From Thermus brockianus (GTDB lineage: Bacteria > Deinococcota > Deinococci > Deinococcales > Thermaceae), in NCBI RefSeq assembly GCF_021462505.1, contig NZ_JAKEDV010000006.1:1-64000 (forward strand): a DNA stretch of 64,000 bases. The letters run 5' to 3'. The position numbers were made by a program, and so were the translations under genes. Each line of letters opens with the position of its first letter. The stretch's first letter is position 1. The notes beneath the pieces are model-generated. The model did no database searches and was not told where the DNA came from. It saw only the letters and a list, made by a program, of their open reading frames with translations. Below are positions 31,727-42,402 of the stretch, piece after piece.

Positions 31727-33013
31727 CTACTCGTACCGCAACGCCTCCACCGGGTCCAGCCTAGCCGCCCGCCAAGCGGGGTAAAGCCCGAAGAAGACCC
31801 CCACCGCCACAGCGAAGGCAAAGGCCAGGACCACGCTCAAGGGGGCGAACACCGGCGTCACGCCAATGGCCTGGCCCACAAAGCGGGCCATGAAAAGCCC
31901 GAGGGCCACGCCCAAAAGCCCTCCGCCCACGCTCAGAACCACGGACTCGGCGAGGAACTGGGCCAGGATGTCCCTTGGCCTGGCTCCCAAGGCTTTCCGC
32001 ACCCCTATCTCCCGGGTGCGCTCCGTGACCGAGACCAGCATGATGTTCATAATGCCAATGCCCCCTACCAGGAGGCTAATCCCCGCCACCCCTCCCAGGA
32101 AAAGGGTCATGGCCAGGGTGGTCTGGTTCACGCTCTCCAGGGCATCCTGTTGGTTGGTCACGGAAAAATCGTAGCTTTCGGGGTCCAAGAGGCCATGCCG
32201 TTCCGCCAGGAACTGGGTGAGCCGGGCCTGGAGGTCCTTCAGGCGGTTGCGGTCCGCCCCTTGGAGGTAAATAGCGTTCACCTTGGGGCCCCCCGCCTCG
32301 GGACGGGCGAGGCGTTGCAGGTAGGTGGAGAGGGGCACGTACACCTGGTAGTTGGTGCTCACGAACCCCTGGTCCCCCTTATCCGGCAACACCCCCACCA
32401 CGGTGAAGGGAATCCCCCCGATGCGCAGGCGTTGCCCCAAGGGGTCCTCCCCTCCGAAGAGGTCCTGGGCGATGCCGTAGCCGATCACCGCCACCCGGCG
32501 CCGCGCTTCCACGTCCTCCCAGGTAAAGAAGCTCCCCTTTTCGGGAAGGGCGTTTCGCACTTGGGCGAAGTCCGGCCAGGTACCCACCACCGTGGCCCTA
32601 AGGTTATTGGCCCCAAACTTGAGCTGGAAGTTCCCCTGGGCCACAGGCGCCACCCCCACGACTTCCCCGGAAAAGGCTTCCTGGATGGCGTAGGCGTCGG
32701 AAAGGGGCAGGGTAGCAGGGCCTCCAAAGCGCACCAACCCCCCGCCCGGCCCCCGCCCCCCCTGGGCAGGGCCCACGGTGAGAAGGTTGGTACCGAGGCC
32801 CTCTAGGAGGTTGGAAATGCGCCGGGTGGTCCCTTGGCCCACCATGGTGAGGGCCACCACCGCCGCCACCCCGATGACCACCCCGAGGGCGGTGAGGGCG
32901 GAGCGCAAGGGGTTGGCGGCGATGGCCCGCAGGGCCACGCGGGCCACCTCCCAAGGGGAAAGCCCCACCCGGCCTGGCAAGGCCTCTTGGGGCTGGGGCA
33001 TCGGTCTGGTCAT
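31727..33013 (-). CDS. MacB-like ABC transporter permease
   Basis: The 428-residue membrane protein has one N-terminal helix ([25 protein letters not shown]) and a large extracytoplasmic domain of about 220 residues. Three C-terminal helices follow, including [20 protein letters not shown] and the conserved [20 protein letters not shown]. This is the MacB_PCD plus FtsX layout of mechanotransmission ABC systems that drive efflux or lipoprotein handling from the periplasmic side. It is encoded last in the efflux run, and its start overlaps the ATPase stop by 4 bases. The cargo is unknown. Confidence 0.92.
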
Positions 33014-33699
33014 CCCACCCTCCTTTCGTCAGCCACGATCTCCCCGTCCCGCACCCGGACAATCCTCTGGGCTTTCTGCGCCACCGTGGACTCGTGGGTG
33101 ACCAGGATGACCGTGGTTCCTTCCCGGTTGAGCTCTTGGAAAAGGGCAAGGATCTCCTCCCCCGTCTTGGTGTCCAGAGCCCCCGTGGGCTCGTCGGCGA
33201 GGAGGAGGGGGGGCTTTAGGGCCAGGGCCCGGGCGATGGCCACCCGCTGCCTTTGCCCACCGGAAAGCTGGTTGGGCAGGCTATGGGCCTTCTCCAAAAG
33301 GCCCACCCGCTCCAGAAGCGCTAAGGCCCTTCGCCGCCGCTCTTTAGGAGGCAGGCCAGCGTAAGCCATGGGCACCTCCACGTTCTCCACAACGCTGAGC
33401 CGGGGAAGGAGGAAAAACGCCTGGAAGACAAAACCCACGAAGCGGTTCCTCAGGTAAGCCCGCTCTCCCTCCGAGAGGTCTTGGGTGGGCCTACCCAAAA
33501 GGCGGTACTCCCCTTCCGTGGGCCGGTCCAGGAGGCCCAGGATGTGGAGGAGGGTGCTCTTGCCGCTCCCCGAGGGCCCCATGATGGCGAGGATCTCCCC
33601 CTCCTCCACCCGGAGGTCCACCCCCTTGAGGGCGAGGAAGGCCACTTCCCCGGTGCGGTAAACCTTCTTCACCCCCCGCAGTTCTAGGAGCATGCTCAC
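33010..33699 (-). CDS. MacB/LolD-type ABC transporter ATPase
   Basis: The 229-residue ATPase has Walker [16 protein letters not shown] (residues about 40-53), the Q-loop region [20 protein letters not shown], signature [20 protein letters not shown], and Walker [21 protein letters not shown] followed by the switch His in VILVTHE. The DEPTGALD spelling and [13 protein letters not shown]-like region place it in the MacB/LolD group. In the canonical MacB of proteobacteria the ATPase is fused to the permease; here they are separate genes with 4-base overlaps on both sides. Confidence 0.95.
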
Positions 33700-34994
33700 C
33701 TCCCAGGCCCAGGGCCCATAAGGGGCAGGGGACCCCCAGGGGCTTGCAGCCGCTGGGAACCTGAGCCCCCCTGGTTTCGCTTGGGCAGGACCACCTGGTC
33801 CCCCTCCTTGAGGCCTTCCAAAACCGCCACCCGGGTGCTGTCCTCGAGGCCCAGGGTAACGCGAACCCTCTCCGTGGAGCCATCGGCGCGGAGAAGGGTG
33901 ACGTAGGCCTGCCCCCTCACCCGCTCCACCGCCCGCTTGGGGAGGACCAGGACGTCCTTGAGGTCCTGCACCACGATCTCCCCATCGGCGCTCATCCCGG
34001 GGCGGAAGCGGGGGTCCGGGGGAAGGCTTACGGTGACCTTGAAAACCGGAATGTTGTTCACCACCTCACCCTGAGGGCTTATGGCCTCCACCCGGCCGAG
34101 GAAGGTTTCGCCCGGGAGGCCCTCGAGGCTCACCTCCACGGGAAGGCCCACCTTTACCTGGGCGATCTCCGTCTCGTCCACCTCCAGGACCAGGCTGTAG
34201 CGGGAGAGGTCCCCGAGGGTAAGGAGGGCCGAGGTGGGCCCCACCTGGGCTCCCGGGCTTGCCGCCACGGAAAGGACCACACCGCTCAAGGGGGCCAAAA
34301 CCCGCGTTTTTTCCAAATTATATTGGGCTTCCGCCAGGGCAATCCGCGCTTGGGCTAAGGCGGCTTCCTGGGTACGGAGGTCTGCCTGGAGCTGGGCCTC
34401 CCGCAAGGCCAAGGCCTCCCGTTGCGCGCTTAAGCTTGCCTCGGCGTCATCCAAGGCCCTTTTGGCATTGTTGTAAGCGGTTTCCGCCTCTAGAAGGGCC
34501 TGGCGGCTCGCACCCCCGGCCTGGTAGAGGAGCCGGGTGGCTTCCAGGTTCCGCTGGGCTGTGGCCAGGCTCGCCTGGGCGTTGGCGTAGGCTACTTCGG
34601 CGCTCTTCAGGGAGGCCCTGAGGGAAGCCAGGGCGCTTTCCCCTTGTGCCTTGGCGTTGGCCAGGGCCGCCTCGGCCTTCGCCACGTCGGACTGGGCCTT
34701 CGCCACAGCTTGGCGGAAGGGGGTGGGGTCCAGTTCGGCCAGCACCTGGCCCTTTTCCACCGGAGTCCCTTCGTCCACCACAAACCGAAGTAGGCCTTGC
34801 ACCTCGGGGCGCACCTCGAGGCTCTGCCAGGGGGCTAGGCTCCCAGAACCGGAAACCGTGACCCGGATCTCCCCCCGGGTTACGGTGTACACCTCAGGGG
34901 CCTCCACCGCCTGGACCACCCTCTTGGGCCGCAGGAGAAAGTATCCCAAAAACGCTAAAGCCACCACGACCCCAAGGAGAAGCCATCGCCTCAT
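33696..34994 (-). CDS. MacA-like membrane fusion protein (HlyD/RND adaptor family)
   Basis: The 432-residue protein has an N-terminal membrane anchor (WLLLGVVVALAFLGYFLLRP). A biotinyl-lipoyl-like half-motif reads VRPEVQGLLRFVVDEGTPVEKGQVLAELD, and a long alpha-helical hairpin rich in Ala/Gln (residues about 85-230) follows. A second lipoyl half (VLAPLSGVVLSVAASPGAQVG) and a beta-barrel/MP domain then lead to a Gly/Pro-rich tail. It would bridge the MacB-like permease and a TolC-type outer-membrane channel. It overlaps the genes on both sides by 4 bases. Confidence 0.93.
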   Translation of the reverse strand: MRRWLLLGVVVALAFLGYFLLRPKRVVQAVEAPEVYTVTRGEIRVTVSGSGSLAPWQSLEVRPEVQGLLRFVVDEGTPVEKGQVLAELDPTPFRQAVAKAQSDVAKAEAALANAKAQGESALASLRASLKSAEVAYANAQASLATAQRNLEATRLLYQAGGASRQALLEAETAYNNAKRALDDAEASLSAQREALALREAQLQADLRTQEAALAQARIALAEAQYNLEKTRVLAPLSGVVLSVAASPGAQVGPTSALLTLGDLSRYSLVLEVDETEIAQVKVGLPVEVSLEGLPGETFLGRVEAISPQGEVVNNIPVFKVTVSLPPDPRFRPGMSADGEIVVQDLKDVLVLPKRAVERVRGQAYVTLLRADGSTERVRVTLGLEDSTRVAVLEGLKEGDQVVLPKRNQGGSGSQRLQAPGGPLPLMGPGPGR

Positions 34995-36022
34995 CGCCCC
35001 ACCTCCCCAAGGACCACGAGGTCCTGCCCCGCCGCCAGGCTTAGGGCAGCCAGGGCCCTCCAGTAAGCGTTTTGGGCCACGAGTAGGTTATACCGGGCCT
35101 GGGCCAGGTTTGCCTCCTCCTGCTCCAACTCCACCCGGCTTGCGGTCCCCGCCTGGAAAGCCTTGCGGGCCACCTCCAAGGTCCTCTCCTGGTTGGCGAG
35201 GCTTTCCCGGGCGGTGAGCACCTGGCCCCAGGCAGCTTGGGCTTGGGCGTAGGCCGCTTCCAAGGCGGAGAAGGCTTGGGCCATGGCGTTATCCAGGGCC
35301 TTCCGGGCGTTATCCCGGCTGGCCTTGGCCTTCTCCAAGGTGAGGCGGGGGGTGTAGTCGTTGTCGGCCAGGCGCACCTGAAGCTCGGCAAGCTCCCAGG
35401 CCTGCCGGGCCTGGACCAGGCTGACAAGCCTCGCCTCGAGGCCCTCCCTCAAAGCGGCCAGGTCTACCCCCAAAGCCTTGGGCTCAGGCAAGGGAGCAAG
35501 CCGCGGCTCCTCCGCCAAAGAAGCCCCAAGCGCCGCCTCCAGAGCCTTGAGGAGAGCGGGACGCTGGGCTTGCGCATTTTGGAGGGCGATCTCCGCCGAT
35601 TTTAAGGCCGCCTCCGCCTTGGCCACGTCCAGGTCCGTGGCGTTGCCCGTTTGGCGCCGGGCCCGGGCAATCTGTAGGTTGCGCTCCGCCAGGGCCCGGT
35701 TGGCCTTGAGGACCTCCTCGTTGGCCTGGGCCTCCAAGAGCGCAGTGTAGGCGGAAAGGAGGGTCTGAAGCAGGTTTAAACGGCTCGCCTCCACCTGAAC
35801 CTCCGCCAAGGCCAAGGCCTGCCTCGCTTGGGTGAGGGGGAGGATGAGCGTGCTCGGGTCCGCCTCCAGGGCCTGAAGCTCCACCCGGGCGCTTTCCCGG
35901 GCCAGAAGGGCGTTCTGATAGGAAGGGTTTTGCCTAAGAGCCTGTTGCCAGGCCTCCTGAAAACTCAAACCTTGTGCCAAAGCTAAGCTTCCCGCGTAGA
36001 GCACCACCAGGATCCGCTTCAT
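34991..36022 (-). CDS. TolC-family outer-membrane channel protein (second copy)
   Basis: The 343-residue protein begins with a signal peptide, MKRILVVLYAGSLALAQGLS, at ATG 36022. It is dominated by Ala/Leu/Gln heptad-like helices with the duplicated outer-membrane-efflux-protein pattern: FQEAWQQALRQNPSYQNALL, the A-E-R-N-L-Q-I-A-R segment and the C-terminal KAFQAGTASRVELEQEEANLAQARYNLL. It is shorter than typical TolC (about 420-480). Upstream in-frame sequence belongs to the neighbouring tolC-like gene. With its larger neighbour it may form a mixed channel or act as a periplasmic helper. Confidence 0.85.
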   Translation of the reverse strand: MKRILVVLYAGSLALAQGLSFQEAWQQALRQNPSYQNALLARESARVELQALEADPSTLILPLTQARQALALAEVQVEASRLNLLQTLLSAYTALLEAQANEEVLKANRALAERNLQIARARRQTGNATDLDVAKAEAALKSAEIALQNAQAQRPALLKALEAALGASLAEEPRLAPLPEPKALGVDLAALREGLEARLVSLVQARQAWELAELQVRLADNDYTPRLTLEKAKASRDNARKALDNAMAQAFSALEAAYAQAQAAWGQVLTARESLANQERTLEVARKAFQAGTASRVELEQEEANLAQARYNLLVAQNAYWRALAALSLAAGQDLVVLGEVGR

Positions 36023-37284
36023 TCCCCACCTCCCACAAGGTCTTCCCCCATGGCATCCAAAAGGGCGTAATAGGCCTGGAGGAAAGCGGCCTTGGCCCCC
36101 TCCAGGGTGCGGCGGGCCTGGAGGAGGCCCACCTCCGCTTGCATGACCTCTAGAGCGGTTCCCGTTCCCGCCTGGAGCCGCCCCTTGGCCACCTCCCAAG
36201 AGTTCTCCGCTGCGCTCAAGGCTTTGGTGGCCACATCCACCTGGGCTTGGGCTTGAAGGAGGGCTTGGTGCTTGGAGCGAAGATCCAACTCGGCCGCCCT
36301 CTTTGCGCTTTCCAAGGTAAGACGGGCTTGGGTAAGGGTTTTCTCCCTCAAGGAAAGCTGGGCATCCTGGCCTGGGTTCAGGAGGGGGAAGCTCGCCTGG
36401 ACCTGGAAGGATACTCCTCCTGTTCCTTGTCCCTGGAAGGCATACTGGCCCCCATAGGTGAGGGTTCCCGCCTTTAGGTTGAGCCCAAGGGACAAGGCGG
36501 CGTTGCCCTCCTGGGCGGTAAGGCCCAAGGACACCTCGGGGAAGAACCGCTCCCATTGGGCTTGGGCCAAGGCCACCTCCGCTTCCTCCACCGCAAGTTG
36601 GGCTTTGCGCACGTCGGGCCGCTTGTCCCGTCGGGCCAAAACCTCTTCCAGGGAGGGAATTCCTTGAGGGAAAAGGGGTAAGGCCCCTGCAACCACCTCC
36701 CGGCCCAAAGTGGCCTTTAGCCGGGCCTGGGCCAGGCCAAGGGCGAGCTCCGCCCGCAGGGCTTCCGCCTGGGCCTCCGCCAGATTGCCCTCCGCCTCCA
36801 AGAGGTCCTGAAAGGTAGCCTGGCCCTTTTCCCGTTGGTCCCTCACCGCCCTAAGTTGGGCTTCCCGCCAAGCCAGGCGCTTTTGCGCCAGCGCCTGGTC
36901 CAAAGCAGCCAGGTAAGCGTCCAGATACTGGGAAAGGGCCGTTTGGAAGAGGGCGTTTCCCTGGGACAAGAAGTCCAGAAGCGCTTGCCGGTAGGTAATC
37001 TCCGCTTCCCTTAGGCTGCCCTGGGCCTGCCCCCACGGAAGGGCCAGGCTCCCCCCGAGGCCCAGGGCGAGGCTCTCCTGCCCCAACAGGCTCCGGCTAT
37101 AGCTCCCCTGGGGGGAAAGGGTGGGGACAAGCCCCTTTTGCGCCGCCTCCCAAGCGGCCTCGGCCTGGCCCTTCTGCAAAAGAAGGGCCTGGTAGCCGGG
37201 GCTTTCCCGCACCCAAGCCCTAAGGTCCACCCCCTGAGCCAGGGCGGGGAGAAAAAGGAGGAGAAGACTCCATATCCTTGGCAT
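36019..37284 (-). CDS. TolC-family outer-membrane channel protein (first copy)
   Basis: The 421-residue exported protein (signal MPRIWSLLLLFLPALAQGVD) has two outer-membrane-efflux-protein repeats. The first half contains the REKGQATFQDLLEAEGNLAEAQAE helix pair. The second contains AKGRLQAGTGTALEVMQAEVGLLQARRTLEGAKAAFLQAYYALL. The DVRKAQLAVEEAEVALAQAQWERFFPEVSLGL link is typical of TolC relatives. It is the first of five tightly overlapping efflux genes and starts 26 bases after the histidine-kinase stop, with GGGGTGG as ribosome binding site. Confidence 0.9.
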   Translation of the reverse strand: MPRIWSLLLLFLPALAQGVDLRAWVRESPGYQALLLQKGQAEAAWEAAQKGLVPTLSPQGSYSRSLLGQESLALGLGGSLALPWGQAQGSLREAEITYRQALLDFLSQGNALFQTALSQYLDAYLAALDQALAQKRLAWREAQLRAVRDQREKGQATFQDLLEAEGNLAEAQAEALRAELALGLAQARLKATLGREVVAGALPLFPQGIPSLEEVLARRDKRPDVRKAQLAVEEAEVALAQAQWERFFPEVSLGLTAQEGNAALSLGLNLKAGTLTYGGQYAFQGQGTGGVSFQVQASFPLLNPGQDAQLSLREKTLTQARLTLESAKRAAELDLRSKHQALLQAQAQVDVATKALSAAENSWEVAKGRLQAGTGTALEVMQAEVGLLQARRTLEGAKAAFLQAYYALLDAMGEDLVGGGE

Positions 37285-37310
37285 ACCACCCCAAAGCTAG
37301 CTCCCCTGGG

Positions 37311-38513
37311 TTAGGCCCCGGTTATAGGGAGGACCAAGCGGGCCACGAGGCCCGAAGGGGCGTTGGGCAGGAGTTCCAGCCTCCCCCCGTGGGCCTCTGC
37401 CACCTTCTTGGCCACGGAAAGGCCCAGGCCCTCCCCAGGGGCCCTCGAGGCCCGCAAAAAGGGGCGGCCCGCCTCCTTCCGGGCCTCCTCCGGCATCCCC
37501 GGGCCCTGGTCCACCACCCCCAGGAGGGCCTCCTTCTCCCCCGCCTCCAAGACCACCCGCACCCCCTTCCCCTCCCCGTGGAGGAGGGCGTTTTGCAGGA
37601 GGTTCCTCAGGGCCTGGGCGAGGAGGAGGGGGTCGCCCCTAAAGGGAAGGCTATCCGGCCCCTCGTAGGGCACGCCGAAGGCTGCCGCTTCTTCCCGCGC
37701 CAAGGCGGCCAGGTCCAGGACCACCCGCTCCACCCTTCCCTCCCGGGCGAGGACGAGGAGGGCCTCCACCAGGCGCTTCATGCGGAGAAGCTCCTCCTTG
37801 GCGGCGAGGAGGGCCTCCTCCTGGGAGAGGTAGCCCTTCTCCGCCGCCTCCACCTGGGCGAGGGCGGCGGCCACGGGGGTCCTGAGCTCGTGGGCGGCGT
37901 CCCGGGTGAAGCGCCTTTCCCGGTCCAGGAAGGCCTCGAGGCGCTCCAGCATGTGGTTGAAGGCCTCGGCCAAAGCCTTGAGCTCCCCCCCGCCCTCGGG
38001 GACCACCCGCAGGGAGAGGTCCTGGGAGTCCGCCACCCGCCGCGCCACCCCCGTGAGGCGGGCCAGGGGCCTGAGGGCGGCCCCCGCCAGGCTTCCCGCC
38101 AGCAGGGCGAAAAGGAGGGTGAGGAGCCCCCCCACCCCGAAAAGGGCCAGGCGGAAGCGGCTTAAGGCGAAGGCCGCCCCGGGATCGTAGCGGGCCACCG
38201 TGAGGGTCCCCCCTGGGACCTCGAGGACCAGAACCCGCCACCCCTCCCGCCAGTAGGCCCCCGGGGGAAGCTCGGGGAGGTCGGGGAAGTTGGCGCTCGC
38301 CTGCCGGGCCTCCCCATGCACCAGGCGGAAGGCGAACTCCCCCCTCGGCGGGCGCCGGCCCTCCGCCAGGGCCTGGACATAGAAGAGGAGGGACCGGTCC
38401 AGATCCGCCTCCACCAGGCGCTTAAAGGCCACGTAGCTCAAGGCCCCCTGGAAGAGGAGGGCAAGGCCGATGGCCAGGGCGAAGAAGAGGGCAAGCCGGG
38501 TCCTAAGGCTCAT
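37311..38513 (-). CDS. Sensor histidine kinase
   Basis: The 400-residue membrane kinase has a first transmembrane helix (ALFFALAIGLALLFQGALSY), an extracytoplasmic sensor of about 100 residues, a second helix (LALFGVGGLLTLLFALLAGSLAG), a HAMP segment, and the phospho-acceptor H-box FTRDAAHELRTPVAAALAQV. N-box ALRNLLQNALLHGEG and G-boxes VVDQGPGMPEE and GLGLSVAKKVAEAHGG complete the catalytic domain. It overlaps the response-regulator stop by 11 bases. The signal is not evident from the sensor sequence; the downstream efflux genes suggest an envelope stress, metal or drug. Confidence 0.93.
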   Translation of the reverse strand: MSLRTRLALFFALAIGLALLFQGALSYVAFKRLVEADLDRSLLFYVQALAEGRRPPRGEFAFRLVHGEARQASANFPDLPELPPGAYWREGWRVLVLEVPGGTLTVARYDPGAAFALSRFRLALFGVGGLLTLLFALLAGSLAGAALRPLARLTGVARRVADSQDLSLRVVPEGGGELKALAEAFNHMLERLEAFLDRERRFTRDAAHELRTPVAAALAQVEAAEKGYLSQEEALLAAKEELLRMKRLVEALLVLAREGRVERVVLDLAALAREEAAAFGVPYEGPDSLPFRGDPLLLAQALRNLLQNALLHGEGKGVRVVLEAGEKEALLGVVDQGPGMPEEARKEAGRPFLRASRAPGEGLGLSVAKKVAEAHGGRLELLPNAPSGLVARLVLPITGA

Positions 38514-39162
38514 CCCCAAGCCGGTACCCCCCGGGCACGGTGCGCACCACCCCGGGATGGAGCTTCTGCCGCAGGTAGTGCACGTAGACCTTCACCGCCC
38601 CCACCTTTTCCCCATCCCCAAACACCCTCTCGGCCACCTCTTCCGGGGCGAAGACCCGCCCCGGGTGCAGGAGGAAAAGCTCCAATAGGGCGAACTCCTT
38701 CAGGGAAAGGTCCACCCGCTTGCCCTCCCAAAAGACCGCCCGCCCCGCCAGGTCCACCTCCAAAGCCCCCAGGCGCACCCGGCTCCCCTTCACCTCGGAG
38801 GCCCGGCGGAGAAGGGCCCGCACCCGGGCGAGAAGCTCCTCCAGGTGGAAGGGCTTTACCAGGTAGTCGTCCCCACCCAGGTCCAGGCCCTGGATGCGGT
38901 CCTCCAGGGCATCCCGGGCCGTGAGGAAGAGGATGGGCCCCTTGTAGCCCGCCTCCCGCACCTCCCCGGCGAAGCGGAAGCCCCCGTCCGGGTCCTCGGG
39001 CAGGCGCACGTCCAGGACCATGAGGTCGGGCTCCAGCTCCAAGAAGGCCTCCCGGGCCTCCCCAAGCCCCTTGGCCCAGCGCACCCCATACCCCTGGGCG
39101 GCCAAGGCCCCCGCCACCGCCCGGCCCAAGTGGGGCTCGTCCTCCAAGAGGAGCACCTGCAC
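38503..39162 (-). CDS. OmpR-family response regulator
   Basis: The 219-residue regulator has a receiver domain (VLLLEDEPHLGRAV acidic pair, phospho-acceptor Asp in LMVLDVRLPEDP, switch Thr in LFLTARD, Lys in YLVKPFHLEELL). A winged-helix DNA-binding domain follows (SLKEFALLELFLLHPGRVFA ... AVKVYVHYLRQKL ... TVPGGYRLG). The start is GTG 39162, with CATACT 6 bases upstream (39174-39169), so it is leaderless. Directly upstream is an array of four GTTA/TAAC half-sites in the spacing OmpR-type regulators use, which suggests autoregulation and control of the divergent ApbE cluster. Confidence 0.94.
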   Translation of the reverse strand: MQVLLLEDEPHLGRAVAGALAAQGYGVRWAKGLGEAREAFLELEPDLMVLDVRLPEDPDGGFRFAGEVREAGYKGPILFLTARDALEDRIQGLDLGGDDYLVKPFHLEELLARVRALLRRASEVKGSRVRLGALEVDLAGRAVFWEGKRVDLSLKEFALLELFLLHPGRVFAPEEVAERVFGDGEKVGAVKVYVHYLRQKLHPGVVRTVPGGYRLGDEP

Positions 39163-39183
39163 GCCCTCAGTATGGGCCAGGCG

Positions 39184-39221
39184 GGTTAGCCGGGGGTTAT
39201 CCCGCTAACACCCGCCTAACC
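39184..39221. promoter_or_regulatory. Four-half-site operator-like array between the two-component operon and the ApbE cluster
   Basis: GTTA at 39185-39188 and 39196-39199, then TAAC at 39206-39209 and 39217-39220, have start-to-start spacings of 11, 10 and 11 bases. The array is symmetric about 39202-39203. The first pair sits in GGTTAGCCGGG/GGTTATCCCGC direct repeats, and the other pair is the mirror image. It covers the probable -35 regions of both the leaderless response-regulator promoter (CATACT 39174-39169) and the apbE promoter (TACCCT 39231-39236). Confidence 0.6.
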
Positions 39222-39243
39222 GCCCGCCCCTACCCTTTAGGCC

Positions 39244-40029
39244 ATGGGCCGGTACGGGGCCAGGTGGGAAGGGGTCTTGGGAAGCTTCCTGGAGGTGCAG
39301 GTGGAAGCCCCTTGGCCCCTCCAGAACCAGGTCCTAAGGGCCTCCCTAGCGGAGGTGCGCCGCCTGGAAGGCGTTTTCAGCCGCCACCAAGAAAGCGAGC
39401 TCGTCCGCCTGGTGCGCCAGGGCGGGGGTAGGCCAAGCCCGGAAATGCGGGAGGTCCTCCTCCTGGCCCTAAGCCTCCAAGAGGCCACGGGGGGCGCCTT
39501 CCACCCCGCCCCCCGCCACGGGGGGGAGGCCTTGCGCTTCCTAGGCGAGGAGGTGGAGGTCCTCGCCCCCCTGGACCTGGACGGCCTCGCCAAGGGCTAC
39601 ATCGCCGACAAGGCGGCGGAGGCCGCCCTGAAGGCGGGGGCCCGGGCGGCCCTGGTGAACCTGGGCGGGGATCTAGCCCGAAAGGGACCGGGCCTCGCCC
39701 AGGTCCTGGTGGAAGACCCCTTGGGCCCCGACAACGCCCCGCCCGCCTTCCACCTCCGCCTCACCCAAGGCGGGGTGGCCACGAGCGGCGTGCGCCACAA
39801 GGGGGCCCACCTCCTGGACCCCCGCACGGGGAGGCCCGCCCCCGGGCTCCAGGCCACGGTCCTGGCCCCTTCCGCCTGCCTGGCGGACGGCCTCGCCAAG
39901 GCCCTTTTCGTCCTGGGGCGGGAAGGTTTCCCGGTGCTCGCCCGCTTCCGGGCCCAGGGGGTGCTCTTCACCGGGGAAGGCCCCGTAACTGGCCCAGAGG
40001 GAGGGAAGGATGCTCAAGCGCTACTATAG
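39244..40029 (+). CDS. apbE: FAD:protein FMN transferase (ApbE family)
   Basis: It covalently attaches FMN to Ser/Thr of extracytoplasmic electron-transfer proteins. The 261-residue protein carries the family blocks LDLDGLAKGYIADKAAEAAL, ALVNLGGDLARKG, GGVATSGVRHKGAHLLDPRTGRPA and the C-terminal PSACLADGLAKALFVLG. No signal peptide or lipobox is visible, unlike many ApbE proteins, so either it acts inside or the start is mis-set. TACCCT lies 7 bases before ATG 39244. Its last 20 bases overlap the DUF2271 gene. The three-gene neighbourhood points to a flavin-dependent redox chain at the membrane. Confidence 0.9.
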   Translation: MGRYGARWEGVLGSFLEVQVEAPWPLQNQVLRASLAEVRRLEGVFSRHQESELVRLVRQGGGRPSPEMREVLLLALSLQEATGGAFHPAPRHGGEALRFLGEEVEVLAPLDLDGLAKGYIADKAAEAALKAGARAALVNLGGDLARKGPGLAQVLVEDPLGPDNAPPAFHLRLTQGGVATSGVRHKGAHLLDPRTGRPAPGLQATVLAPSACLADGLAKALFVLGREGFPVLARFRAQGVLFTGEGPVTGPEGGKDAQALL

Positions 40030-40549
40030 CCGGAGGAGCTTTTTCAGGCGGGTTTTGGGTGGGGTTTTGGCCCTAGGGATGGCCCGGGCCCAGGGGAAGC
40101 CCTGGCCCCAAGGGATGGAGCTCCGGGTGAGCTTCGCCTACGAGGGCGGCGGCTTCCGCTACCGCGCCCCTTACGTGGCGGTGTACGTGGAGGACGAGCG
40201 GGGCAACCTGGTGCGCACCCTGGGGCTTTTCCTGATGCCCGGGAAGGGGGAAAGGTGGTGGAACGAGCTACGGCGCTACTTCGCCCTGGGGGACCTGGCG
40301 CGCATGCGCACCCTCTCCGGCCCCACCCGCCCCCCGGGGCGCTACACCCTGGCCTGGGACGGCAAGGACGAAGGGGGCCGCACCGTGGCCCAGGGGAGCT
40401 ATTACGTCTGCGTAGAGTACGCCCGGGAGCACGGGCCCTACGAGCTTTTCCGCGAGAAGGTGGAGGTGGCCGAAACCCCCTTCCAAAAGAGCTATACCCT
40501 AAAGGGGGAACTCAAGGAGGTGCGCCTTGATTACGGCCGGAAGGCCTAG
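40010..40549 (+). CDS. DUF2271 protein with a Tat-type signal
   Basis: The 179-residue protein begins MLKRYYSRRSFFRRVLGGVLALG, a twin-arginine-like signal (S-R-R-S-F), so it is probably exported folded with a cofactor. The mature part is a DUF2271 domain: APYVAVYVEDERGNLVRTLGLFL, WWNELRRYF, TLSGPTRPPGRYTLAWDGKDEGGRTVAQGSYYVCVEYAREHGPYE. This beta-sandwich domain regularly occurs beside ApbE and PepSY proteins and its function is unknown. Both ends overlap neighbouring genes (20 and 23 bases). Confidence 0.85.
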   Translation: MLKRYYSRRSFFRRVLGGVLALGMARAQGKPWPQGMELRVSFAYEGGGFRYRAPYVAVYVEDERGNLVRTLGLFLMPGKGERWWNELRRYFALGDLARMRTLSGPTRPPGRYTLAWDGKDEGGRTVAQGSYYVCVEYAREHGPYELFREKVEVAETPFQKSYTLKGELKEVRLDYGRKA

Positions 40550-41141
40550 AAGCGGGGCGAGCCCCTTACGGGCCCGGCTTTACGCCTGGGCCCGGACCCT
40601 CCACCTCTACCTTTCCCTCCTGGCCTTTCTCTCCATCCTCTTCTTCGCCGTGACGGGCCTCACCCTGAACCACCCCGAGTGGTTCGGGGAAGGGAGGGTG
40701 CGGAAGGTTTCCGGCACCCTCCCCCACGCCCCCTACCTCCAAGGGGAAGGCATGGACTGGCTCGCCCTGGCGGAGGACCTGAGGGCCTTGGGGCTCCGGG
40801 GCCGGGTGGCGGAGCGCGGGGAAAGCGGGGGGTTGGCTTGGCTTTCCTTCCGGGCCCCCGGCTACGGGGCCGACGCCCAGGTAGACCCCAGGACCGGCGC
40901 CTACACCTTAAGCGTCACGGAGGCCGGTCTGGTGGCGGCCCTAAACGACCTACACAAGGGGCGGGACACCCCGGGGGCCTGGCGGTGGGTCCTGGACCTA
41001 TCCGCCCTCTTCCTGGCCCTGGTGAGCCTGAGCGGCCTTCTCCTAAGCCTCCTCTTCGGCAAGACGCGGAAGGCGGCCCTCCTCACCCTCCTTTTGGGCC
41101 TCCTCCTCTTTGGGGGCCTGGCCCTTTGGGCGGCCCTATAG
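40527..41141 (+). CDS. PepSY-associated transmembrane protein
   Basis: The 204-residue protein starts at TTG 40527, supported by AAGGAGGTG ending 5 bases upstream. It has a first helix with a His in ARTLHLYLSLLAFLSILFFAVTGLTLNHPEWF. An extracytoplasmic PepSY-like segment ends in AQVDPRTGAYTLSV, and a second His-containing stretch NDLHKGRDTPGAWRWVLD comes before two more helices. PepSY_TM proteins of this type are thought to pass electrons through haem held by such His residues. With ApbE and DUF2271 it forms a probable periplasmic reductase module. Its end overlaps the convergent gene by 6 bases. Confidence 0.85.
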   Translation: MITAGRPRSGASPLRARLYAWARTLHLYLSLLAFLSILFFAVTGLTLNHPEWFGEGRVRKVSGTLPHAPYLQGEGMDWLALAEDLRALGLRGRVAERGESGGLAWLSFRAPGYGADAQVDPRTGAYTLSVTEAGLVAALNDLHKGRDTPGAWRWVLDLSALFLALVSLSGLLLSLLFGKTRKAALLTLLLGLLLFGGLALWAAL

Positions 41142-41621: not shown

Positions 41622-42374
41622 CTAGCCCACCTCCAGGAAGCGGGCCAAGGCCTCCTCCGAGAGGTACTTCCCTACGTAGAAGGGCCCGAACTCGCCAAAG
41701 CGGGCGGAAACCTCGTCAAAGCGCATCTCGTAAACGATCTTCTTGAACTGGATGGGGTCCTCGCTAAAGAGGTCCACCCCCCACTCCCAGTCGTCCAGGC
41801 CCTGAGCCCCGCTTATGACCTGCATCACCTTCCCCTGGTACTTCCTCCCCGTTTCCCCGTGGGCCTTCATGAGGGAGGCCCTTTCTTGGGCGGGGAGCAT
41901 GTACCAGTTGTCCTGCCCCTGGCGGCGCTTGTTCATGGGGTAGAAACAGACATAGCCCCCCTTGGGCACCCGGGGGGTGAGGCGGGGCTTGACGTAGGGG
42001 GCCTCGGGGTCCAGGGGGCCCGTCTGGCTCCCCAGCTCCACCACGGAGTAAAAGCCGTAGGCGGGCCGGAGGTAGCGGGCGAAGCGGCTCTTGTTCAGGC
42101 GCTCCTCCACGGCCAAAAGGGCGTCCAGGCTCTCCCTTAGGTTGAGGAAAAGGAGGTCCGCCTTGGAGGTCACCACCTGGTAGACGCCGTAGGTACCCCG
42201 CCCCTCGGCCTCCACTTCCCGCCAGGCGGCGAGGATGGCCTTTAGCTCCTCCCAGGCGGCAAGCCGCTCCTCCTTGGGGGCGCCCAACCAGGCCCCAAAG
42301 TCCAGGTGGCGGAAGTCGTGCAGGACGTGCCAGCCCTCGAGGGTGAAGGTGGGCTCGGGTACGTGGCCTTCCAT
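41622..42374 (-). CDS. hemQ: Coproheme decarboxylase HemQ (chlorite dismutase family)
   Basis: It converts Fe-coproporphyrin III to haem b in the Gram-positive/thermophile route. The 250-residue protein starts MEGHVPEPTFTLEGWHVLHD at ATG 42374. It has KADLLFLNLRESLDALLAVE in the N-terminal half and the haem region YMLPAQERASLMKAHGETGR with the proximal His. VISGAQGLDDWEWGVDLFSEDPIQFKKIVYEMRFDEVSARF is the family core. The sequence agrees with the T. thermophilus protein of known structure as I remember it. TATAGT lies 7 bases before the ATG in a palindrome shared with mscS. hemB is at the other end of the window, unlinked. Confidence 0.94.
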   Translation of the reverse strand: MEGHVPEPTFTLEGWHVLHDFRHLDFGAWLGAPKEERLAAWEELKAILAAWREVEAEGRGTYGVYQVVTSKADLLFLNLRESLDALLAVEERLNKSRFARYLRPAYGFYSVVELGSQTGPLDPEAPYVKPRLTPRVPKGGYVCFYPMNKRRQGQDNWYMLPAQERASLMKAHGETGRKYQGKVMQVISGAQGLDDWEWGVDLFSEDPIQFKKIVYEMRFDEVSARFGEFGPFYVGKYLSEEALARFLEVG

Positions 42375-42381
42375 GCTTCTC

Positions 42382-42402
42382 ACTATACCCCTGGGGTATA
42401 GT
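42382..42402. promoter_or_regulatory. Palindromic bidirectional promoter (hemQ / mscS)
   Basis: ACTATACCCC (42382-42391), a central T, and GGGGTATAGT (42393-42402) form a perfect 21-base palindrome. Each arm supplies a TATAGT -10, one per strand, and each box ends exactly 7 bases before an ATG (42374 minus, 42410 plus). Both mRNAs would be leaderless. Confidence 0.65.

Follow-up and report, generated by a model that had tools for sequence, protein, structure and literature searches.

A tandem TAAC-N7-TAACC box at predicted promoters of a two-component system, a covalent-flavin operon and efflux operons in Thermus

The window analysed here, a 64,000-nucleotide stretch of a Thermus brockianus contig, contains a divergent gene arrangement. 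On the minus strand lies a response regulator gene (RR; 38503..39162), whose product carries a receiver domain (Response_reg, PF00072) and a winged-helix domain (Trans_reg_C, PF00486), both above their cut-offs; these Pfam domains place the protein in the OmpR/PhoB family, and it is the presumed binder of the boxes described below. Its nearest solved structures are BasR/PmrA and M. tuberculosis PhoP, and its recognition helix, VGAVKVYVHYLRQKL, is near-invariant among orthologues. A histidine kinase gene with HAMP, HisKA and HATPase_c domains (37311..38519, minus strand), the cognate sensor by gene order, adjoins RR in the orthologous loci, both within the genus and in other genera. An efflux operon on the same strand begins with tolC1, encoding an outer membrane efflux protein (36019..37284), and continues with tolC2, a HlyD/MacA-type adaptor, an ABC ATPase and a MacB-type permease (31727..36085). 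On the plus strand, apbE, for an FAD:protein FMN transferase (39244..40029), a DUF2271 protein gene (40010..40549) and a gene for a PepSY_TM-like membrane protein, a putative transmembrane electron carrier (40527..41141), form a complete PepSY-type flavinylation cluster gene set. DUF2271 proteins elsewhere are flavinylated by ApbE, and PepSY-like proteins have been proposed as membrane electron carriers (PMC8238504). At the position of the flavinylation motif, the DUF2271 protein (40010-40549) reads SGPT, as it does in this genus and in most relatives, in place of the published [S/T]GA[S/T]. The window also encodes a coproheme decarboxylase-like protein (41622-42383) that matches PDB 1VDH (E = 2.8e-136), a Thermus thermophilus protein.

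The RR start codon (GTG 39162, minus strand) and the apbE start codon (ATG 39244, plus strand) have 81 bases between them, and the sequence there contains the four half-sites at 11-10-11 spacing exactly where they had initially been placed: GTTA at 39185-39188, GTTA at 39196-39199, TAAC at 39206-39209 and TAAC at 39217-39220. We find one tandem box at each of the two divergent promoters, in the arrangement TAAC-N7-TAACC-N9-[-10]-N6/7-start codon. Box 1, at the RR-HK promoter (TAACCCCCGGCTAACC, 39184..39199, minus strand), consists of half-1 at 39196-39199 and half-2 at 39184-39188, and box 2, at the apbE promoter (TAACACCCGCCTAACC, 39206..39221, plus strand), of half-1 at 39206-39209 and half-2 at 39217-39221. 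Two 6-base half-sites with 5 bases between them give each box an 11-bp period, and the half-site consensus per operator is the direct repeat (C/T)TAACN-N5-CTAACC. Box 3, absent from the initial annotation, stands before tolC at the efflux operon promoter (TAACCGGGGCCTAACC, 37309..37324, minus strand), where it runs across the final codons of the histidine kinase gene and their TAA stop.

TAAC-N7-TAAC occurs three times in the window against 0.2 expected under a first-order Markov model, two of the occurrences making up the divergent array and the third preceding tolC, and all other TAAC-TAAC spacings from N4 to N15 gave zero matches in the window. A genome search for the same array, the check proposed at the outset, returned a single occurrence of the exact four-site pattern in the 2.35-Mb genome, even with two mismatches. 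When the centre is allowed to vary, the facing box pair is found in 15 of the 111 genomes of the order, always once and always in the genus Thermus, and the reversed control pattern has zero matches in those 111 genomes. The excess over expectation, the lack of any other spacing from N4 to N15, the single genomic occurrence and the empty control together exclude chance: the half-sites and their spacing are non-random.

Each of the three boxes is followed after 9 bases by a predicted -10 element: CATACT at the RR promoter (39169..39174, minus strand, 6 bases before GTG), TACCCT at the apbE promoter (39231..39236, plus strand, 7 bases before ATG 39244) and TAGCTT at the tolC promoter (37294..37299, minus strand). 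ATACT at the RR promoter is invariant and at fixed spacing in 16 distinct rows, and the N9 spacer from box to -10 holds in all RR and apbE boxes except at the RR promoter of one genome (G015), where it is N10. The start codon sits at the expected transcription start, which predicts that both the RR and apbE mRNAs are leaderless; leaderless mRNAs are common in this phylum, being predicted for over 20% of Deinococcus-Thermus genes, with TANNNT ~12 bp before the start (PMC3160421). The boxes lie over -37 to -22, and a consensus search for sigma-70 promoters found none in the divergent region. The geometry is that of class II sites, with an operator over the -35 position, a fixed distance to the -10 and no consensus -35, and at the comparative level it supports the earlier view that half-sites cover the -35 regions of both divergent promoters, as 11-bp tandem half-sites.

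Conservation was followed in 27 genomes of the genus, 18 with an RR orthologue and 9 without (RR-minus); a contig search for further relatives returned only regulators of ≤46% identity, useless for footprinting. Box 1 is present at the promoter of all 18 RR orthologues of the genus and box 2 before all 17 genus apbE genes with a readable start. In the 16 distinct loci compared for each promoter, TAAC and CTAACC never change and the intervening bases vary, and N7 is invariant in all orthologous boxes, as expected of a tandem-repeat operator. Loss of the half-sites in relatives that retain the gene pair had been named as evidence against a regulatory role; every such relative keeps them. All 18 RR-plus genomes have a box followed by a leaderless start, against 1 of the 9 RR-minus genomes, the exception being yceI in G013, with 0 control matches. 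Within the genus, apbE occurs only in genomes that also carry RR, and co-occurrence therefore cannot separate the two. Where apbE has been lost (G016), half-2 of box 2 reads TAACT, changed from TAACC, and its -10 has disappeared. In G010 (L095), apbE is truncated and the DUF2271 and PepSY genes are lost, yet box, -10 and start are intact.

Equivalents of box 3 precede tolC in nine genomes. Of the 18 RR-plus genomes, 7 have the MacAB-type cassette with this box in the same place; in other RR-plus genomes the kinase is followed directly by ruvA. An AcrB-type efflux operon occupies the site in the opposite direction in G008 and lies on another contig, unlinked, in G010, and both begin with the same box. 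Its presence at MacAB-type and AcrB-type operons alike indicates that the box accompanies efflux operons of different pump classes. The proposal that one regulator controls efflux together with the electron-transfer cluster divides in two: shared control is well supported by the comparison, and the description of the efflux genes as simply the regulator's own operon needs amending, given their own box 3, the optional cassette and the AcrB-type operons elsewhere in two genomes. What the sequences themselves show is that the boxes exist, have a fixed geometry, are conserved and move together with the target genes.

We consider it probable that the OmpR/PhoB-family RR activates the RR-HK, ApbE/DUF2271/PepSY and efflux operons separately, by class II activation. 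The kinase would presumably phosphorylate the neighbouring RR, which would bind each operator as a head-to-tail pair, with half-1 in place of a -35 element and half-2 ending 9 bases before the -10; the bound pair would then replace the -35 contact and recruit RNA polymerase, in the class II manner of PmrA and PhoB. RR would in this way activate the genes for itself and its kinase (RR-HK), the predicted leaderless ApbE-DUF2271-PepSY operon for flavin electron transfer and, by way of box 3 before tolC, the efflux operon. Head-to-tail class II binding is likely because the geometry is that of PmrA and BasR/PmrA is the nearest solved structure; we infer that RR is the binder, that binding depends on phosphorylation and that its outcome is activation rather than repression. 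A repressor that blocks polymerase by binding over the -35 region could make use of a position over -37 to -22, but the sigma-70 promoter search of the region was empty and PmrA and PhoB occupy the same position at promoters that they activate (PMC4660055), which makes repression unlikely.

The pairing of RR with the box is likely but not exclusive. All 25 RR orthologues examined have box 1 at their own promoter. Eighteen of them belong to the genus and seven to other genera of the family, and these seven all keep the autoregulatory geometry. Six of these seven (G050, G055/G057/G062/G065/G066) combine the half-site ATAACC with the recognition helix GVVKVCVHHLR, suggesting a modest covariation of half-site flank and recognition helix. 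The yceI promoters (L152:10197 = G000:C19:23196; L243-L263) read TAAC-N7-TAACC-N9-TACGCT. Among the genomes read, 16 with RR and 3 without (G013, G005, G025) have the box before yceI, and we do not accept yceI as a certain fourth target, since its box persists in the RR-minus genomes; this persistence suggests that a second regulator probably reads the same sequence. Before tolC in RR-minus G025 the half-site is the variant CTAACG.

Other 11-bp repeats were also noted. An HtrA-like protease gene (L299-L325) has CTAATC-N5-CTAAC(C/G)-N9 and a -10-like hexamer upstream, genus-wide and with or without RR, and an OmpH/Skp-like gene (L327-L353) has TCAC-N7-T(A/C)AC upstream, genus-wide and with a leaderless-type start. 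The repeats before both genes occur in RR-plus and RR-minus genomes alike, and neither gene was accepted as an RR target, as they are RR-independent and have other half-sites (TAAT, TCAC). A gene that looks FabH-like by eye (L102, L107, L119) has TAACG-N5-GTAACNCC before its start in many genus genomes; its first 60 residues have zero Pfam matches. It is matched by a looser TAAC-N7-TAAC plus -10 pattern and was set aside as a different motif, its flanks being different. TTAC/TAAC-N7-TAACC repeats lie upstream of genes for small SHOCT-domain membrane proteins (L155, L160, L297, L298), that of L297 near a heavy-metal P-type ATPase-like frame, and a SHOCT gene is found near the RR locus in other genera.

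An alternative is that a paralogous core-genome OmpR-family regulator, the one behind yceI, htrA and the ompH/skp-like gene, is the main reader of the boxes, with the site of RR different or shared. The yceI boxes that persist in RR-minus genomes and the 11-bp repeats before htrA and the skp-like genes throughout the genus speak for it. We nonetheless judge it improbable, because box 1 accompanies RR's own promoter in every orthologue across several genera, because the box flank shifts together with the RR recognition helix, and because RR paralogues of 53-61% identity lack the box in their upstream regions.

How far apart the two boxes lie distinguishes two operators from one array. Within the genus, the second GTTA and the first TAAC are separated by 10, 11, 12, 14, 15, 25, 29, 55 or 723 bp, the last in G010 after a large insertion; box 2 travels with apbE when the intergenic region of that genome reaches 795 bp. 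In a sister genus (G071, L404:7030-7120), whose RR has the same recognition helix as in Thermus, the boxes overlap fully, at an offset of -9, such that one GGTTAACCCCGCGTTAACC serves both strands; the sequence CGGTTAACCCCGCGTTAACCGG reads TAAC-N7-TAACC on both strands, with both -10 spacings identical to those of the genus. A single cooperative, helically phased four-site array, filled as a unit and controlling both promoters, would fit the 11-10-11 spacing of this species, where every interval is near one helical turn. It would also call for a conserved centre spacing, and what we find ranges from -9 to 723 bp: the other species examined depart from the 10-bp centre (11-55, 723, -9), often out of helical phase (14, 15), and each half stays tied to its own promoter. 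An array of this kind is very unlikely, and we reject the four sites as a unit, since the centre varies and each box is fixed to its own -10 and start. What survives of the mirror-symmetric helical unit in the initial annotation is the 11-bp spacing within pairs, which is conserved, and not the 10-bp centre. The 11-10-11 mirror symmetry is peculiar to this species, because the distance between boxes varies freely among relatives, and on this comparison the symmetry visible in one genome is incidental; as part of the explanation that we favour as probable overall, the four half-sites would be two separate operators, one per divergent promoter. That the motif is instead the -35 element of an alternative (ECF) sigma factor, as its fixed distance upstream of a -10-like hexamer might suggest, is very unlikely, because the box consists of two near-identical invariant half-sites one turn apart, the nearer of which lies just 9 bp from the -10, where ECF promoters are known to have a single -35 element, and because the boxes accompany an OmpR-family gene.

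The overlapping boxes of G071 raise a possible history that we put forward tentatively, with slightly less than even confidence: in this bacterial family, one pair of activator half-sites may have merged into a single operator driving two opposite leaderless promoters, or may have separated from such an operator. As parts of the same tentative reading, the palindromic GTTAAC half-sites of G071 would let one 11-bp repeat serve both strands, each promoter in Thermus would have its own copy, and the portable box would recruit unrelated efflux operons to the same regulator. If true, these genomes offer a natural series in which to follow the change from one operator shared by both directions to two that act independently. 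Because the start codons are 82 bases apart in the window and about 62 in G071, two polymerases, each occupying ~40 bases upstream of its start, would just abut in the former and would overlap in the latter, where they may exclude each other.

The type of circuit is known, and this instance appears undescribed; a literature search under guessed T. thermophilus locus numbers returned nothing on this operon. The analysis offers a testable regulon in which a two-component system would join transmembrane covalent-flavin electron transfer to efflux, in thermophiles, a group with apparently few OmpR-family sites described. It also yields a promoter rule of 31 bases, made up of box, -10 and leaderless start, that can be applied throughout the genus, and a natural series of spacings, running from overlapping operators to 723 bp, which shows the symmetry seen in one genome to be incidental. 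The results also carry a warning that several OmpR-family regulators of the genus may have almost the same half-site in common.

Among known systems, one close in geometry is the PmrA (BasR) box, whose half-sites (CTTAAT, CCTAAG) are 6 bases long, 5 bp apart and on the same strand (PMC3973317), with half-1 at the -35 element (PMC4660055), and which PmrA binds head-to-tail. The boxes described here share this spacing and placement, and differ in their half-site, which is CTAACC and not of the PmrA type (CTTAAG / NTTAAT), in their leaderless GC-rich promoters and in their flavinylation and efflux targets; the overall similarity of RR to PmrA is one of family and not of orthology. The PhoB pho box and the TTAACA-type boxes of PhoP are likewise 11-bp direct repeats that replace the -35 element, but their half-site and targets differ, and RR is by context not a phosphate regulator. 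BaeSR-MdtABC and CusRS-CusCFBA are two-component systems beside efflux operons and resemble this locus in that an RR-HK pair adjoins a TolC-type efflux operon whose promoter carries a regulator box; unlike them, the efflux cassette here is optional and of MacB or AcrB type, and the flavin operon is the conserved target. Finally, the published ApbE-DUF2271-PepSY clusters (PMC8238504) contain the same three-gene set, with [S/T]GA[S/T] in place of the SGPT found here, and are tied to Fur and iron, whereas control by an adjacent two-component system is predicted for the cluster in Thermus.
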